Virus record (IMG/VR): IMGVR_UViG_3300015371_000014
Location: 16,354-80,353 of that record
Length of the DNA: 64,000 nt
Source of the DNA: a virus
Strand: one strand, 5' to 3'
This document shows, one piece after another, positions 51,418-61,434 of this stretch; the stretch's first letter is position 1, and every line of letters starts with the position of its first letter. A program made the translations under genes and the position numbers. The notes below the pieces were generated by a model, which was not told the origin of the DNA, ran no database searches, and was given only the letters and a program-made list of their open reading frames with translations.

Positions 51418-51446
51418 ACCTTACCACAACCTCCATCCTGTGTCAA
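51418..51446 (-). promoter_or_regulatory. TAAGGT-class promoter (leftward)
   Basis: TTGACA (51446-51441), 17-bp spacer ending GTTGTGG, TAAGGT (51423-51418). Third copy of this promoter class. Confidence 0.75.
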
Positions 51447-51454
51447 GTATGAGA

Positions 51455-51628
51455 AACGAGGCTGATTGCTCAGCCCCGCCTCCCAGAACATAGGTTATCG
51501 TTCACGAGTTGCCCTAGGTGTTCGAGAAGACCCCGGTTACATGGTGCCCACCTTTCGTTTCAAAAACCCGAATCTCGCTCTGAAAAAATATTTGGATTTG
51601 GCCGGTTTTCATGGACCGGGAATCCAGT
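51455..51628 (-). ncRNA. Candidate small RNA 2 (leftward)
   Basis: About 170 nt without a plausible ORF. Nested stems TGGATT/AATCCA and CCGGT/ACCGG lie near the 5' end. The 3' end has GGCTGA-GCAA-TCAGCC (51460-51475) followed by CGTTTC. Preceded by a TTGACA-N17-TACATT promoter. Could also be a long leader of the following genes. Confidence 0.5.
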
Positions 51629-51634
51629 GGAACG

Positions 51635-51663
51635 AATGTATCATAGGTGACAGGCTGTGTCAA
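51635..51663 (-). promoter_or_regulatory. TACATT-class promoter of small RNA 2
   Basis: TTGACA (51663-51658), 17-bp spacer, TACATT (51640-51635) on the minus strand. Its spacer includes CCTGTCA, so it resembles an operator interrupted by 3 bp. Confidence 0.65.
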
Positions 51664-51669
51664 GGGGGT

Positions 51670-51825
51670 AAAAACGCTACTGGCCCAACCGAAGTCAGGC
51701 CAGTAAACGCTCGGAAACCTTGGAGAGGGGGAATCAGCGCCTTGCGGGGTTGCTCACGGGGCGAGCATGCTTGGCTTTGGAAACCTCTCCTCAGCGTTTT
51801 TGACAGGGAGTCTCACTTCTCTGCC
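51670..51825 (-). ncRNA. Candidate small structured RNA 1 (leftward)
   Basis: Own promoter at 51832-51860. Long-range stems AAACGCT/AGCGTTT (51705-51711 with 51793-51799) and GGAGAGG/CCTCTCC (51722-51728 with 51784-51790) enclose a TGCTC/GAGCA hairpin (51751-51767). A TACTGGCC/GGCCAGTA stem followed by GCGTTTTT (51670-51705) is an intrinsic terminator. No convincing ORF. About 155 nt. Confidence 0.65.
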
Positions 51826-51831
51826 AACCGA

Positions 51832-51860
51832 AATGTAGCACGGATGTGCTGATCTGTCAA
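51832..51860 (-). promoter_or_regulatory. TACATT-class promoter of small RNA 1
   Basis: TTGACA (51860-51855), 17-bp spacer, TACATT (51837-51832) on the minus strand; same -10 as the promoter at 51635. Confidence 0.7.
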
Positions 51861-54858: not shown

Positions 54859-54887
54859 AGACTAGCAGAAGGACTGTGCTTTGTCAA
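54859..54887 (-). promoter_or_regulatory. Leftward promoter flanked by two operator-like sites
   Basis: TTGACA (54887-54882), 17-bp spacer, TAGTCT (54864-54859). Sites at 54830 and 54906 sit on either side, allowing looping or double occlusion. Confidence 0.75.
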
Positions 54888-55521: not shown

Positions 55522-55780
55522 GGGCATCCTGGTATGTGTCGGGATACGCGGTTTTGACGTTTCCCGACAATGGCATGCGGAAATCTCCGCGTTGCCGGGA
55601 AACCCTGTCAAAATCAGACCGCCAAAACTGGTTTCGTGCTGCACACGTTGCCATACCATGCTGACAGTGTGTGGAATGACTCCCCATGCTGCAGAGAATC
55701 CCTGCAGCGCATTGTGAGAGGGTTTCCGCGTACGCGATACCTATAAGAGTGGAGAAAACGAAATCCGTCTCTATTCGGGG

Positions 55781-55809
55781 TTGACACATCCGTACCATTG
55801 CTGTAAGGT
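55781..55809 (+). promoter_or_regulatory. Promoter of the structured RNA/56-61 kb module
   Basis: TTGACA (55781-55786), 17-bp spacer, TAAGGT (55804-55809): the TAAGGT class used on the minus strand, here on the plus strand. Confidence 0.8.
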
Positions 55810-55810
55810 A

Positions 55811-56153
55811 CTTCCCAGCGGAGCCAACATTCCCAGAGGCTCCCAAAACCGGGAAGCGACAATGAAATCTAGCGCGGGAAGAAACCGGAGAAGTGATCTC
55901 CCGCATATGTCAGCTAGACACTTCAAACGTCAATGAATCCCGGTCTAGCGGAAGTGATCTCTGCTAGCCAGTCAGACTGAGGTAGTACCGCCATTCATAT
56001 GGGGAATGCCGAACGTGCTAACTGAACGTTGCGACAACGTACAGGACGCTAAGTCGGGAGGAACCACGGTACAGGACGTAGGGAAAACTACCTCAGCGTA
56101 ACGGTTCTGGAGATTCCAGACGGTAGCGGGACAACGCGCTACCGTCTGGAGTT
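55811..56153 (+). ncRNA. Large structured RNA with its own promoter and terminator
   Basis: About 335 nt without a plausible ORF. Nested stems: CTTCCC/GGGAAG (55811-55856) around GGAGCC/GGCTCC; TCTAGC/GCTAGA (55868-55918) around GCGGGA/TCCCGC; CTAGC/GCTAG (55945-55967); a 10-bp CTGAGGTAGT/ACTACCTCAG (55977-56096) enclosing CATTC/GAATG and ACGTT/AACGT hairpins and a GTACAGGACG direct repeat. Ends in a 13-bp terminator stem (56116-56149) then GTTTT. GAAGTGATCTC occurs twice and can compete for CACTTC. Either a trans-acting RNA or an attenuated leader of the next gene. Confidence 0.7.
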
Positions 56154-56177
56154 TTGGAACACACGAAAGGGAAAACA

Positions 56178-57395
56178 ATGGAACCAACCTGCACGCGTTG
56201 CGGTTCAACGGATGACGTTCGCGTTTCCGGTTATTGCTTTGACTGCATACGGCAGGGTCGCAAGAATCGGGAAGTCAACGAAACGACAACGGAAGCACTA
56301 GAGAGAATGGGACGAAAGGAAGAAACCATGTCTGACACGTTCAAAATCGAAAATGGCGGACCTGGTTTTTACCGTTGCTACCTAAATGGAGACTACGTAG
56401 GTTCCATCGTGCAGGATTCGGAAGCTATCCGATACGACGATGGCAAGATGCACAAATCATGGTATCTCCGCTCCAGGTTGCTGGGATACAACGTGCATTG
56501 TGACCGCTATTTCGCTGACATCCGGAAAATGGCGAAAGGCTATTTCGTTCGCGAACGTGCGGAGTCAACGGTAGTTGGGAAGGAAGAAACCATGTCTGAG
56601 GATTTTCCGGCAATCAACTACACACTAACCGTGAATTTTGTTGACGGTTCGCACGTTGACCAATATTTCGAAATCATGCAATCGGCAGAGGCTGCAGGTA
56701 GGCGTTGGTTGGATTTCGGTAGTAATTACTATCCCGACGCGGTGTCTTTCACGGTATCAAATCGTGAGGGTTTCCCGGTTTTCGGACTAGCGAAAGACAC
56801 CCCGTACGTGTGTAACCAGTGTCAAGGTCCGGTTGACGCTGGGTACGCGGAGTCAACCTATATCGTTGACGGGAACGTTTCGATTTGTCGCGATTGTGCG
56901 GCAAAGGAAGAAACGGAAACCGTGTCTGGTTTTGAGGTAGACATCTACGAAAATGCCGACTGGCACACGCGAACCTTTCCGGAATGGTCCGAGTGCCGCG
57001 CCTATGCGACCCATTTTGTCAAGCGTGGTGCCCATGTTGTGATATGGGATGGAAACGACGAAATCTACAATTCGTCTGTTTCGCAGTGTGTGCCGAAAGA
57101 ATCCCCAGCGGTACAAAAACTCGCTGATCTCCGTACCACACTCGACAAAATAAAATGGGAAGTTTTCGGCACGCTGGTTACCGCGTGTGACGTGGGGTGT
57201 CATCCTAATTCAAAATCTCCGCTTGCAACCTACGTCAATGATGCGTTGCAAGCCTACGGAACCGCTGAAGCATGGCTACGTAGGATGGAGTCTGGCGATA
57301 GTGACCCTGGAGTCACCGCTAAGGACGTTGAAACGGAGTTAGAGCGTTACGATGATGCACTAGAGAGGATCCGCCTAGCGCATACATACCGCTAG
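56178..57395 (+). CDS. Modular protein with fused small domains and zinc fingers
   Basis: 405 aa, ATG 56178 after GAAAGGGAAAA. N-terminal zinc finger CTRCG...CFDC. Three internal junctions read KEETMSDTF, KEETMSEDF and KEETETVSG; at DNA level each is GGAAGAAAC followed by ATG or GTG, i.e. a retained ribosome site and start. A second zinc ribbon CNQCQG...CRDC lies about 213-244. It looks like four once-separate genes fused by loss of stop codons; internal starts may still work. No family recognised. Confidence 0.65.
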   Translation: MEPTCTRCGSTDDVRVSGYCFDCIRQGRKNREVNETTTEALERMGRKEETMSDTFKIENGGPGFYRCYLNGDYVGSIVQDSEAIRYDDGKMHKSWYLRSRLLGYNVHCDRYFADIRKMAKGYFVRERAESTVVGKEETMSEDFPAINYTLTVNFVDGSHVDQYFEIMQSAEAAGRRWLDFGSNYYPDAVSFTVSNREGFPVFGLAKDTPYVCNQCQGPVDAGYAESTYIVDGNVSICRDCAAKEETETVSGFEVDIYENADWHTRTFPEWSECRAYATHFVKRGAHVVIWDGNDEIYNSSVSQCVPKESPAVQKLADLRTTLDKIKWEVFGTLVTACDVGCHPNSKSPLATYVNDALQAYGTAEAWLRRMESGDSDPGVTAKDVETELERYDDALERIRLAHTYR

Positions 57396-57452: not shown

Positions 57453-57647
57453 ATGCAGCCTTACACGTTCCTGCAGACGCTGAAATCGTGCGAACGTTCC
57501 GGCATTCTACTCCCGCGAACCGCGCTAAGCCATGAAACGCGGCTAGCGTGCTATGCGGCGGAAATCATCGTTTCTAGGCCACCAGTACAAGAAACCAAAA
57601 CCGATACCCTTATCGGATTTGAATATCCAACCCTGAAAGGAAAATAA
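57453..57647 (+). CDS. Hypothetical protein, 64 aa
   Basis: ATG with CGGAGTCTCACC leader, similar to the leader of the Gp88-like gene. Soluble, two Cys. Unknown function. Confidence 0.55.
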   Translation: MQPYTFLQTLKSCERSGILLPRTALSHETRLACYAAEIIVSRPPVQETKTDTLIGFEYPTLKGK

Positions 57648-57648
57648 C

Positions 57649-57951
57649 ATGGCACGGTATGCATGGGTGATAACCCGAGATCATTACGCGGAGAAATACA
57701 ACCCTGAAGACAACGAAACCGGGGTTATGGGACCGCGAAGTATCACCCCAGCCCAAATCGAACGATTAGAACGCGGGGAAGGTATTACGTTCAAAATGAG
57801 GGATGACGATAAGGAATTAGTTTACACCGGAAAAATCATCGGAGATTTTGACGGTTTTGAACCGCTAGACGATTTCGGCATGCCGAATTTTGGCTGTACC
57901 GAAATCTGCTACCCAGGTTCAAAACTCTATGGGAATGGAAAGGCACTCTAA
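57649..57951 (+). CDS. Hypothetical protein, 100 aa
   Basis: ATG after GAAAGGAAAATAAC. Acidic alpha/beta protein with an RGEGITFKMRDDD turn. Coupled by TAATG to the next gene. Confidence 0.6.
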   Translation: MARYAWVITRDHYAEKYNPEDNETGVMGPRSITPAQIERLERGEGITFKMRDDDKELVYTGKIIGDFDGFEPLDDFGMPNFGCTEICYPGSKLYGNGKAL

Positions 57952-58340
57952 TGAAAACCGCGCCAGACGGCTATTCACGGAAACGACGCTGCAGAGTGCC
58001 GGGAGCGTTTCGGCACAACCCTGCCGACTGTTATTCCCGCCGCTTCCGCTATCGCAGTATGACGATAGCGGAAGCACGCGCTATCACCTGGAACACTCCC
58101 CTCTGGGTACTGTTTCAGGACGGAGAAATCATGTCGGTTCGCCTAAACGGATCCGTCAAAACATGGGTCCGAGATCAGAACCGCGTAGAGGTACCGCTGA
58201 AGTTTGGTGCCCATGCCAGAGGACAATTCCGGAGCGTTAGTCAATCAGACGGAACCATGTCTGATTTGATTGTCCTGTTAGACGCAAGCGGAAACCGAAC
58301 CGATAACGAAACCTACGCTGTCACACAAGAGATTTATTAG
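57951..58340 (+). CDS. Hypothetical protein, 129 aa
   Basis: TAATG overlap. Basic Cys-containing N-terminus (KRRCRVPGAFRHNPADCYSRR) may be a nucleic-acid binding part or an out-of-frame addition; ATG 58059 (MTIAEARA) is an alternative start. The remainder is beta-rich. Confidence 0.55.
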   Translation: MKTAPDGYSRKRRCRVPGAFRHNPADCYSRRFRYRSMTIAEARAITWNTPLWVLFQDGEIMSVRLNGSVKTWVRDQNRVEVPLKFGAHARGQFRSVSQSDGTMSDLIVLLDASGNRTDNETYAVTQEIY

Positions 58341-58353
58341 AAAGGAAAATCCC

Positions 58354-58833
58354 ATGGCATACATTGACGCTGGAAAATCCGCATTCTCCCGCACGGGGTT
58401 GACGCCACTCCGAGAACGCGTCAACACAATGATTGAACGGTTTCTGATGCGCGACATTCCAAAGGATAAACACTGCGGTACCGTTGTTGTCAACCTTTCC
58501 GGCAGAATCCCGCATGCTAGCCGCTGTTTCAATCATCGTAACCGGCATGGCATGCTAGAACCGATTTACTGCTATCAGCAACATACCGCACGGCTGAAAG
58601 TCGCCCATATCTCAGCGGCGGGATATGTTGACTTTTTTGATGGTGAGGTAGACAGCGACCCAACGCAAGATTTTTGGGCGCATAGCATGCTCTATCCCAG
58701 TGAGGTAGAAAGGTTGATTTCCGCCTATGCGGAATGGCAAGAAAACGAAAGGAAGCAAAACCAGGAAAGACTGCAGAGAGAATGGCTGTCGCGTGGTAAG
58801 GAAAACCGCGCTAACGCGTTAGGAAGGAAGTAA
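58354..58833 (+). CDS. Hypothetical protein, 159 aa
   Basis: ATG after AGAAAGGAAAATCCC. A central block with CYQQHTARLKVAHIS and FFDGEVD is followed by a long charged helix. Unknown function. Confidence 0.6.
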   Translation: MAYIDAGKSAFSRTGLTPLRERVNTMIERFLMRDIPKDKHCGTVVVNLSGRIPHASRCFNHRNRHGMLEPIYCYQQHTARLKVAHISAAGYVDFFDGEVDSDPTQDFWAHSMLYPSEVERLISAYAEWQENERKQNQERLQREWLSRGKENRANALGRK

Positions 58834-58834
58834 C

Positions 58835-59017
58835 GTGCATCTTATCGGATGGTGGATTGACGAATTGCGCGGGGTTTCGATCTACGTACACGGCGTAGAT
58901 CTCACAGAGGAAAGGGTTTTCTTTCAGGACGAAAATGGGGAGTATGGGGAAGTACCGCTGTCCGTTTTCGAGCATGTCGTTGATACCGAACGTCTCACGT
59001 ACGTAGGAAGGAAATAA
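58835..59017 (+). CDS. Small acidic hypothetical protein, 60 aa
   Basis: GTG after GGAAGGAAGTAAC. Compact beta-rich sequence (VSIYVHGVDLTEERVFFQDE). Unknown function. Confidence 0.55.
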   Translation: MHLIGWWIDELRGVSIYVHGVDLTEERVFFQDENGEYGEVPLSVFEHVVDTERLTYVGRK

Positions 59018-59019
59018 CC

Positions 59020-59226
59020 ATGGCCTACACCACAACAAACTTCAAAACCAAAAAGGCATTCAAGGACGCTGTAGCCAGTGGAAAGGAAATCAGGCTGTTT
59101 TCTCCCGGCATGTTTCCACCTAACCAGAATGGTAGAGAAACGGTAGAGGGACCGCATTTTCCGGAACCGCATCGATGGTATGCCAGTGTGACCGTGGAAA
59201 ACGGGGTTGTCAAAACCGTCAAATAA
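59020..59226 (+). CDS. Small hypothetical protein, 68 aa
   Basis: ATG after GGAAGGAAATAACC. Basic N-terminus and a PGMFPPNQNG loop. Unknown function. Confidence 0.55.
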   Translation: MAYTTTNFKTKKAFKDAVASGKEIRLFSPGMFPPNQNGRETVEGPHFPEPHRWYASVTVENGVVKTVK

Positions 59227-59245
59227 CCAGAGGGGAGTCTCACCC

Positions 59246-60037
59246 ATGAAAATTCTTACCCTCGCTGCCGCCAATACCAAAATGGCGAAAGGCGACTATT
59301 TAGATATCGTCGCTGCCATCCTGCATTTAGCTCCGTCTAACGCGTCGGGATACAACGTGTGCATTCATGCCTCTCCAGGTTGTGAGCATGCATGCTTGAA
59401 TCTTTCAGGACGTGGCATTTTTGCGATGGTGCAGGAAGCACGAATCCGCAAAACGCGGTTACTTTTCGAGAATCCGGAAGTCTTCACGTACATGCTGCTA
59501 GCGGATATCGATGCGCTGCAGCGAAAGGCTGCCACCCAGCGCAAGCGGTGCGCTATCCGCCTAAACGGTACCTCTGATTTCCCTTTCCATACCTTCCCGG
59601 TTCACCACAACGGGGTTGACTTTCCCAGTGTCATGCATGCATTCCCAGAGGTACAGTTTTATGACTACACCAAAGTACCGCATACGATCAGACACGAAAT
59701 CCCAAACAACTATCACCTCACGTTTTCCCTGTCAGAATCCAACGACAAACACGCGCTAGAGGCCTTACAGCGCGGTTTCAATGTCGCGGTAGTCCTCGAC
59801 GTTGCCGAAACGGAATCCCTGCCGGAAACATGGGGGGGATATCCCGTCTTAGACGGTACCAAACATGATTTCCGGTTTTTGGATCCGGCAGGATATATCG
59901 TCGGTCTGAAACCGAAAGGAAAACGCGCAAAGTGTGATAGCTCCGGTTTCGTTCGCAGCCCTGCCGATACCTTTCACCCCGAACGCAAGCTAACTCTCGC
60001 CATTCAACAACGAAAGGAACTCCCCAGCCATGTCTAA
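59246..60037 (+). CDS. Gp88-family protein (mycobacteriophage D29 Gp88-like)
   Basis: 263 aa, ATG 59246 after GAGGGGAG. NVCIHASPGCEHACLNLSG, then RLNGTSDFPF, YDYTKVP, LTFSLSESN, GGYPVLDGTKHDFRFLDP and YIVGLKPKGKRAK follow block by block the Gp88 family of phage proteins. The cysteine cluster (CxxxxxxGCxxxC) may bind a metal or cluster. The biochemical role is not known to me. The only clearly recognisable gene in the 56-61 kb module. Confidence 0.75.
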   Translation: MKILTLAAANTKMAKGDYLDIVAAILHLAPSNASGYNVCIHASPGCEHACLNLSGRGIFAMVQEARIRKTRLLFENPEVFTYMLLADIDALQRKAATQRKRCAIRLNGTSDFPFHTFPVHHNGVDFPSVMHAFPEVQFYDYTKVPHTIRHEIPNNYHLTFSLSESNDKHALEALQRGFNVAVVLDVAETESLPETWGGYPVLDGTKHDFRFLDPAGYIVGLKPKGKRAKCDSSGFVRSPADTFHPERKLTLAIQQRKELPSHV

Positions 60038-60254
60038 GAATGAAATCTTTCCCTATGGGACATACCGATTCAAAAACAGTAACGATATCGTGCGGCTATG
60101 CGCGAATCCCGATTCCAGAGAATTCGTCAATATCCGGACAGCCTCTGGTTACGTCTACACCATGCGGGCTGAAACGATTCGGTACCATATCGAAATCGGT
60201 ACCCTGGAGCGCTGGAACGTAGATGCCTCTAGAACGCAAAATAAGGCACCGTAG
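60030..60254 (+). CDS. Small hypothetical protein, 74 aa
   Basis: Overlaps the Gp88-like gene by 8 nt; AAAGGAAC upstream. Its last eight codons are supplied by stem-loop element copy C. Beta-rich; unknown function. Confidence 0.55.
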   Translation: MSKNEIFPYGTYRFKNSNDIVRLCANPDSREFVNIRTASGYVYTMRAETIRYHIEIGTLERWNVDASRTQNKAP

Positions 60255-60263
60255 AGGCACGAA
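60224..60263 (+). repeat. Dispersed stem-loop element, copy C
   Basis: AGAACGCAAAATAAGGCACC core closed by a different stem, TGCCTCT/AGAGGCA. The loop is conserved while the closing stem changes, which suggests an RNA structure. Confidence 0.65.
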
Positions 60264-60333
60264 ACCCCGCTAGAGGACTAACTACCCTCTAGCGGTTCAA
60301 CCCCGCCTTAGAGCGCCTAAAATCGCGTCGGAC

Positions 60334-60347
60334 CTGTCACCTGTCAA
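60334..60347. promoter_or_regulatory. Degenerate operator-like site
   Basis: CTGTCACCTGTCAA: the right arm and centre match, the left arm has two mismatches. 16 bp before the start of the next gene. Confidence 0.3.
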
Positions 60348-60362
60348 AACGAAAGGAAGGGT

Positions 60363-60602
60363 ATGCGATTCGTCAATAAACGTTTCAAGAGCAATTGCCA
60401 CTACGAAACGTCAACCCTCAGCACAGTACGAGTACTGGCACACTGGCGAGATTTCTACCTCCGGAATGGGTGGCGCTTTGACGGTATGTACCGCTGGAGT
60501 CAAACATTCTGGGGACACTCACTGCTATGTCGAGTGTTGATTTTTACCCATCCCGAAACCGGGAAGCACGATACCGTCTATGTAGCGGTACAGCCCTGGT
60601 AA
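60363..60602 (+). CDS. Hypothetical protein, 79 aa
   Basis: ATG after GAAAGGAAGGGT. Basic, aromatic-rich (WRDFYLRNGWRFDGMYRWSQ). Unknown function. Confidence 0.55.
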   Translation: MRFVNKRFKSNCHYETSTLSTVRVLAHWRDFYLRNGWRFDGMYRWSQTFWGHSLLCRVLIFTHPETGKHDTVYVAVQPW

Positions 60603-60617
60603 CGAAAGGAAACCCCC

Positions 60618-61055
60618 ATGTTTGGCTATGGAATCTCGAAACGCGGTACCGTGCGGAGAAAGGGTAAAGCCAAAACCGGCCGATTTATGCGGAAGTGTAT
60701 CGGTATCGGTTTCGGGGTTGGTATCGGGATAGCCGTTATCAATGCGTCGGCAGCGGACAGGATAGGACCGCGTTTCCCCTTACCAGAACCATTCACGGTA
60801 GGCACAGAACACACGGTAACGCTGAAATCCAAAACCCTAGAATGCGTCAATCTGTACACATGGGAAGATGGAACCGTGGTCGCAGCCTGCCGAAATCCGC
60901 ACGGAAAAACCAAAACCCTCGACTACGATGCAGCCTCAGATACCTGGAAACCCTGGAAAGGCTGCTACCCAAAACTCCCCATAGACACCCAAAAACGTGT
61001 CAAGAACCTGCAGCGCTGCTACGGACAGAGCATCGTCTCTCAGCACGATTTCTAA
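60618..61055 (+). CDS. Exported or membrane-anchored protein, paralogue 1
   Basis: 145 aa. Basic N-terminus (KRGTVRRKGKAKTGRFMRKC) then hydrophobic IGIGFGVGIGIAVINASA, a signal or anchor. The exported part contains ECVNLYTWEDGTVVAACRNPHG, a pattern shared with the next gene. Two or more disulfides possible. Confidence 0.55.
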   Translation: MFGYGISKRGTVRRKGKAKTGRFMRKCIGIGFGVGIGIAVINASAADRIGPRFPLPEPFTVGTEHTVTLKSKTLECVNLYTWEDGTVVAACRNPHGKTKTLDYDAASDTWKPWKGCYPKLPIDTQKRVKNLQRCYGQSIVSQHDF

Positions 61056-61080
61056 CCAGAGGAAGAAAGGAACCAAAACC

Positions 61081-61434
61081 ATGAATAACCCCGTCCTCTC
61101 CCGTCTGATTCGTGCCTCCCGTATCGCCATAACCCTTACAGCCCTCACGATCAGTACAGCCAGTGGCGAAACGGGAAGCAACGCAAGCGCACACATTGTA
61201 GGTCCGCACAACACACGGTTCCCCATTATCGGTACTGCAGCGTACAGCGCATCCTGCATCCTCAGTCACTACGTCTACGATGATGGCAGTATTGATGCAC
61301 TCTGTACTGAGGATGGGCAACGGTACCGCTATGATCCGGACGGACAGCCTTACCAGAACACCAGCGGTATCCCGATTAGACAGCCAGGATGGTATGCCAT
61401 AGGGGATAGCGGGAAGGGTATGAGAATGGGATAG
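61081..61434 (+). CDS. Secreted protein, paralogue 2
   Basis: 117 aa, ATG 61081 after GAAAGGAACC. Sec signal (RIAITLTALTISTASG). SCILSHYVYDDGSIDALCTEDGQRY aligns with the Cys-aromatic-DG-A-C block of the preceding gene, so the two are paralogues. Possibly envelope-located superinfection or host-interaction proteins. Confidence 0.55.
   Translation: MNNPVLSRLIRASRIAITLTALTISTASGETGSNASAHIVGPHNTRFPIIGTAAYSASCILSHYVYDDGSIDALCTEDGQRYRYDPDGQPYQNTSGIPIRQPGWYAIGDSGKGMRMG

Follow-up and report, generated by a model that had tools for sequence, protein, structure and literature searches.

Layout of the leader locus and its promoter

The window analyzed here is a 64,000-nt stretch of DNA comprising bases 16354-80353 of an IMG/VR virus record with 80,353 bases in total; coordinates below are window positions. 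The phage appears to have no close relatives in the collections searched; its terminase shares at most 32% identity with any match found, and a loose link to phages of actinobacteria, among other groups, comes from its GP88 and phrog_12268 proteins. A non-coding region of ~890 bp, flanked by divergent promoters of one family (54859-54887 on the minus strand, facing leftward genes, and 55781-55809 on the plus strand), precedes a rightward module that starts with the leader studied here. The first gene past the leader (56178-57395, +) encodes a 405-aa product without a family match and has a GAAAGG ribosome site 7 nt before its ATG. Small genes follow on the same strand (57453-61434), one of which (59207-60037) is a member of GP88/phrog_1617. 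The 405-aa frame contains internal GGAAGAAACCATGTCTGA motifs (ribosome-site-like sequence plus ATG) near 56318 and 56583, and because these are repeated, it may encode several small proteins or contain nested starts. An element of ~22 bp, GGTGCCTTATTTTGCGTTCTAG, occurs in three copies, one upstream of the leader promoter (55500, +) and two on the minus strand (57392 and 60229) at gene ends of the rightward module.

The ORFs tested within 54.9-56.17 kb scored like shadow-frame ORFs and carried no coding signal, and a protein-coding reading of the leader region was rejected on these scores. The initial annotation had described the leader as free of ORFs, which is nearly right. A weak 24-codon ORF, MKSSAGRNRRSDLPHMSARHFKRQ (55862-55936, +), possibly specifying a 24-aa leader peptide, starts at +46 behind a weak GGGAAG ribosome site and lacks a codon signal (codon score -0.31, the shadow-ORF level).

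The leader promoter consists of TTGACA (55781-55786), a 17-nt spacer and TAAGGT (55804-55809) on the plus strand. The window contains 11 matches to TTGACA-N17-TANNNT, this one included, distributed over both strands, against 0.22 expected from shuffles, none of which reached 11; a twelfth member is located in the first part of the record, outside the window. Because of this excess, the member at 55781 is very likely a real promoter, as originally claimed, and transcription of the leader would be expected to start near 55816-55818. No family promoter was found on the plus strand between 55809 and 63310, so the operon would most simply be supplied by read-through, and transcription of the rightward genes (56178 to ~61434) probably relies on polymerases passing 56155.

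Downstream of most family promoters, a short hairpin at the 5' end precedes a ribosome site and a start codon, with the start codon ~33-46 nt downstream. Taken singly, these hairpins are weakly stronger than shuffled sequences (mean z = -0.95, combined -3.3). Together with the ribosome site, they recall the SAS/ESAS elements (PMC3203893) of cluster K mycobacteriophages, in which an inverted repeat likewise precedes the translation start; however, the sequences are unlike, the hairpins of this phage are tied to promoters and 5' ends, and the comparison bears only on the first hairpin of the leader (P1, below). The promoter at 55781 is atypical of the family in that 360 nt without a coding signal lie downstream. 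Long leaders occur among the other members in the units at 1021, 51860 and 51663, and most of the remainder have none.

Predicted structure of the leader RNA

The predicted transcript (55816-56156) folds at -135 kcal/mol (z = -7.1). Without the terminal hairpin, the z score of the leader was -3.2 on the plus strand and -3.8 on the minus strand, a level also reached by 6% of 290-nt windows drawn at random from this phage. When 340-nt windows were ranked by energy for their G+C content, the leader region was unremarkable. Because the terminal hairpin supplies much of the overall score, the modeled leader structure is credible but not extraordinary; the ornateness described in the initial annotation is modest.

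Five helical domains (P1-P5) were predicted confidently (p = 0.8-0.99). P1 is a 5' hairpin (GGAGCC/GGCTCC; 55820-55843, +; pair probability 0.95), and a comparison of 12 promoters showed that several other family members likewise have a hairpin at the transcript 5' end. P2 is a long arm (55848-55944, +) composed of ACCGGGA/TCCCGGT, TCTAGC/GCTAGA and GCGGGA/TCCCGC (pair probabilities 0.91-0.99), with the first copy of GAAGTGATCTC near its tip. P3, an 8-bp hairpin formed by CTAGCGGA/TCTGCTAG (55945-55967, +; p = 0.92), displays the second GAAGTGATCTC and looks like a shortened repeat of distal P2; together, P2 and P3 have a z score of -3.85. P4 is a branched domain (55977-56096, +) with three inner arms (z = -4.2; none of 200 shuffles was as stable), and contains copies of GTACAGGACG at 56039 and 56069. 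Its closing 10-bp helix, CTGAGGTAGT/ACTACCTCAG (55977-55986/56087-56096), has a probability of 0.99, and a perfect 10-bp stem arose in 1.9% of shuffles (P = 0.019).

The nested stems first noted were thus recovered, several helices besides the 10-bp stem having p above 0.9, and so were the direct repeats; GAAGTGATCTC and GTACAGGACG occur twice each, and an 11-mer repeat was seen in 0.7% of dinucleotide shuffles (P = 0.0074). Because neither has a further exact copy elsewhere in the genome, GAAGTGATCTC and GTACAGGACG are best read as local duplications or paired binding elements and not as genome-wide operators.

The terminator-like hairpin P5 (56110-56155, +; -34 kcal/mol) comprises 19 bp, including G-U pairs, around a loop of 8, and the first gene begins 23 nt after it. 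No other simple hairpin in the 80,353-base record is as strong, and random sequence gave 0-2 hairpins of at least 12 bp. The 13-bp terminator stem of the initial annotation corresponds to 14 perfect Watson-Crick pairs (56115-56128/56137-56150); this strong hairpin is followed only by GTTTTGG, that is, four U's and then GG, and a separate scan did not list it. The short U-tract would fit partial termination. Since four U's plus GG make a poor intrinsic-terminator tail, P5 may alternatively serve as a site for RNase III or stabilize the RNA.

A conformational switch had also been proposed, in which two sequence copies compete for one CACTTC. CACTTC (55919-55924) is complementary to both GAAGTG copies, but neither pairing exceeds a probability of 1e-4 in the ensemble because P2 holds the CACTTC region, and the bistable switch was rejected on this folding ensemble. 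A loop-bulge pseudoknot may still form. The best alternative partner for the terminator arms within the leader reached -17 kcal/mol versus -34 kcal/mol for the terminator, which leaves no strong competitor, and secondary-structure folding gave no alternative fold that disrupts the terminator in the manner of a riboswitch or attenuator.

Database searches and further RNA-like units

An Rfam search covering 4227 families returned no leader match at the gathering score and none meaningful at E values up to 10, so that the RNA is not GOLLD, ROOL or another Rfam family, as suspected in the initial annotation. GOLLD and ROOL, both larger than the ~340-nt leader, are likewise large, structured, phage-borne non-coding RNAs; however, the leader did not match them even at E 10 and is not located beside tRNAs. 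GOLLD and ROOL are reported to form oligomers (PMC12286853).

Searches by blastn with the leader against phages and plasmids, and with 54.9-62 kb against phages, found nothing. Queries of IMG/VR with the gene after the leader and with the GP88, terminase, major capsid and primase proteins yielded either nothing or relatives with at most 45% identity. The exact 23-nt P4 pattern had zero matches in IMG/VR. A repeat-pattern search matched four contigs with similarity confined to the searched repeats, and these look like repeats within genes. Covariance models built for P4 and for P2-P3 recovered no sequence but their own, except for chance matches at E above 1. No leader homologue was found across Rfam, phages, plasmids and IMG/VR, in searches from which records very close to the window's own genome were possibly absent. 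Our verdict is based on promoter statistics, position, composition and predicted structure, by which the feature is real and does not belong to a known ornate RNA class.

Other parts of the window contain RNA-like units. At 51668-51860 on the minus strand, the family promoter at 51860 is followed by a structured RNA of ~155 nt (51826-51668) that ends in a hairpin with a TTTTT tail; this unit is likely a small RNA, and Rfam contains no match to it. A further family promoter at 51663 (51440-51663, -) is followed by ~200 nt without a gene and by a predicted 16-bp hairpin just before the promoter at 51446. At 1021-1223 on the plus strand, the family promoter TTGACA-17-TATGAT precedes a ~160-nt leader with an ATG at 1224; relative to G+C content, no 200-nt window is more stable than 901-1100. 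A tRNA-like element (561-649, +) adjoining tRNA-Ser(gga) (650-733) has acceptor and T arms and irregular D and anticodon arms, and was not called by ARAGORN.

A proposed leader RNA between promoter and operon

The sequence features make a non-coding, promoter-driven, hairpin-terminated RNA before an operon well supported. This part of the initial interpretation stands, together with the promoter, hairpin, stems, repeats and lack of coding signal on which it was built; the ornateness is modest, and the bistable switch through CACTTC is probably absent. On balance, we lean toward a structured non-coding 5' leader RNA that would mostly be terminated at a leaky terminator gating the operon, releasing a small RNA. 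Transcription would start near 55817 from the phage-family promoter and produce the ~340-nt leader of a rightward, probably early, operon, a timing that we assume from its position. RNA polymerase would traverse four compact helical domains and then a very strong hairpin with a short U-tract (56110-56155). The majority of polymerases would stop there and free a stable RNA, and a minority, or a fraction set by a leader-bound factor, would continue into the genes from 56178. The promoter family, non-coding status, predicted structure, hairpin, position and lack of another family promoter for the operon can be read from the DNA itself; from these, we infer that the leader is transcribed, early, partly terminated and stable.

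In phage L5, Pleft gives rise to a ~500-nt non-coding RNA that is very abundant and stable, and ~90% of the transcripts end before the early genes (PMC5712189). Deletion was attempted without success for the entire region and for its left part, whereas the right part was dispensable, and the cloned Pleft RNA region of L5/D29 was toxic to the host (PMC5712189). The present locus resembles the Pleft RNA of L5, D29 and StarStuff (PMC5712189) in that a promoter heads a small-gene operon, a few hundred nucleotides lack a convincing ORF and a strong stop, here a predicted one, lies before the first gene; promoter, non-coding stretch, putative terminator and operon follow in the same order, with a short U-tract. 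However, Pleft RNA is ~500 nt long and is processed to 100-400 nt, whereas the predicted leader is ~340 nt long. The P4 and P2-P3 models had no match in the D29 right-end region, one of them had none in the whole D29 genome, and the sequence or structural similarity to D29 expected of a Pleft homologue was not detected. We see a somewhat better than even chance that the leader follows the same working principle as L5/D29 Pleft, without detectable homology.

There is a minor but real likelihood that the RNA is an independent small RNA that works in trans, either on mRNAs of the host or phage or by inhibiting the host, with the hairpin merely its terminator and read-through incidental. Its own promoter and terminal hairpin fit this reading, as do the repeated GAAGTGATCTC elements displayed in hairpin tips, the clearly sRNA-like unit at 51826-51668 with its TTTTT-ended terminator and the toxicity of the L5/D29 Pleft RNA region (PMC5712189); however, the operon from 56178 would be left without a visible promoter.

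A regulated attenuator or antiterminator is unlikely; in this reading, read-through at 56155 would be set by a ligand, by a phage protein, by RNA polymerase contact of the put type or by ribosomes on the 24-codon ORF. The order of promoter, structured leader, terminator and gene is compatible with one, as is the weak upstream ORF, and the put RNAs of HK022, which sit behind early promoters and suppress termination (PMC9378689), are likewise structured RNAs downstream of an early promoter. However, put RNAs have ~70 nt and two stems and act on RNA polymerase (PMC9378689), against ~340 nt and another architecture here; in addition, the terminator is unrivalled by an alternative structure, CACTTC pairing is at ~1e-4, the 24-codon ORF has no codon bias and no Rfam riboswitch matched. 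A similarly small likelihood attaches to a new class of phage early RNA acting both in cis, by gating read-through, and in trans, via the repeated GAAGTGATCTC at the tips of hairpins, in a phage lineage that has several RNAs of this kind.

It is decidedly improbable that no functional RNA is made and that an ordinary promoter is followed by a long untranslated region with a hairpin protecting or processing the mRNA. The moderate structure, the short U-tract and the failure to find homologues in the searched collections would suit that reading, but the repeats (P = 0.007) and the long stems (P = 0.019) go beyond what shuffles produce, and such leaders are missing from most of the promoter family, apart from 1021, 51860 and 51663. 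Highly improbable is a part in a replication origin at which the RNA would serve as primer, on the model of RNA-based origins in prophages of cluster A mycobacteriophages: the leader adjoins the ~890-bp divergent region near leftward replication genes, and RNA-based prophage origins exist in actinobacteriophages (PMC7157519), but the terminal hairpin with a gene 23 nt on better fits a leader, and the opposite strand of 55700-56400 has no promoter with at least 8/12 matches and thus no RNA I-like antisense RNA, so that a ColE1-like origin (RNA primer with antisense control RNA) is unsupported.

The preferred reading is the structured leader with a leaky terminator. If expressed, the leader would be a further structured non-coding RNA between promoter and operon, in a phage without close relatives in the collections searched, and would suggest that the L5/D29 arrangement recurs among phages as a strategy and is not peculiar to cluster A. 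The promoter family is well defined and would make the transcription units of this orphan phage mappable from sequence.
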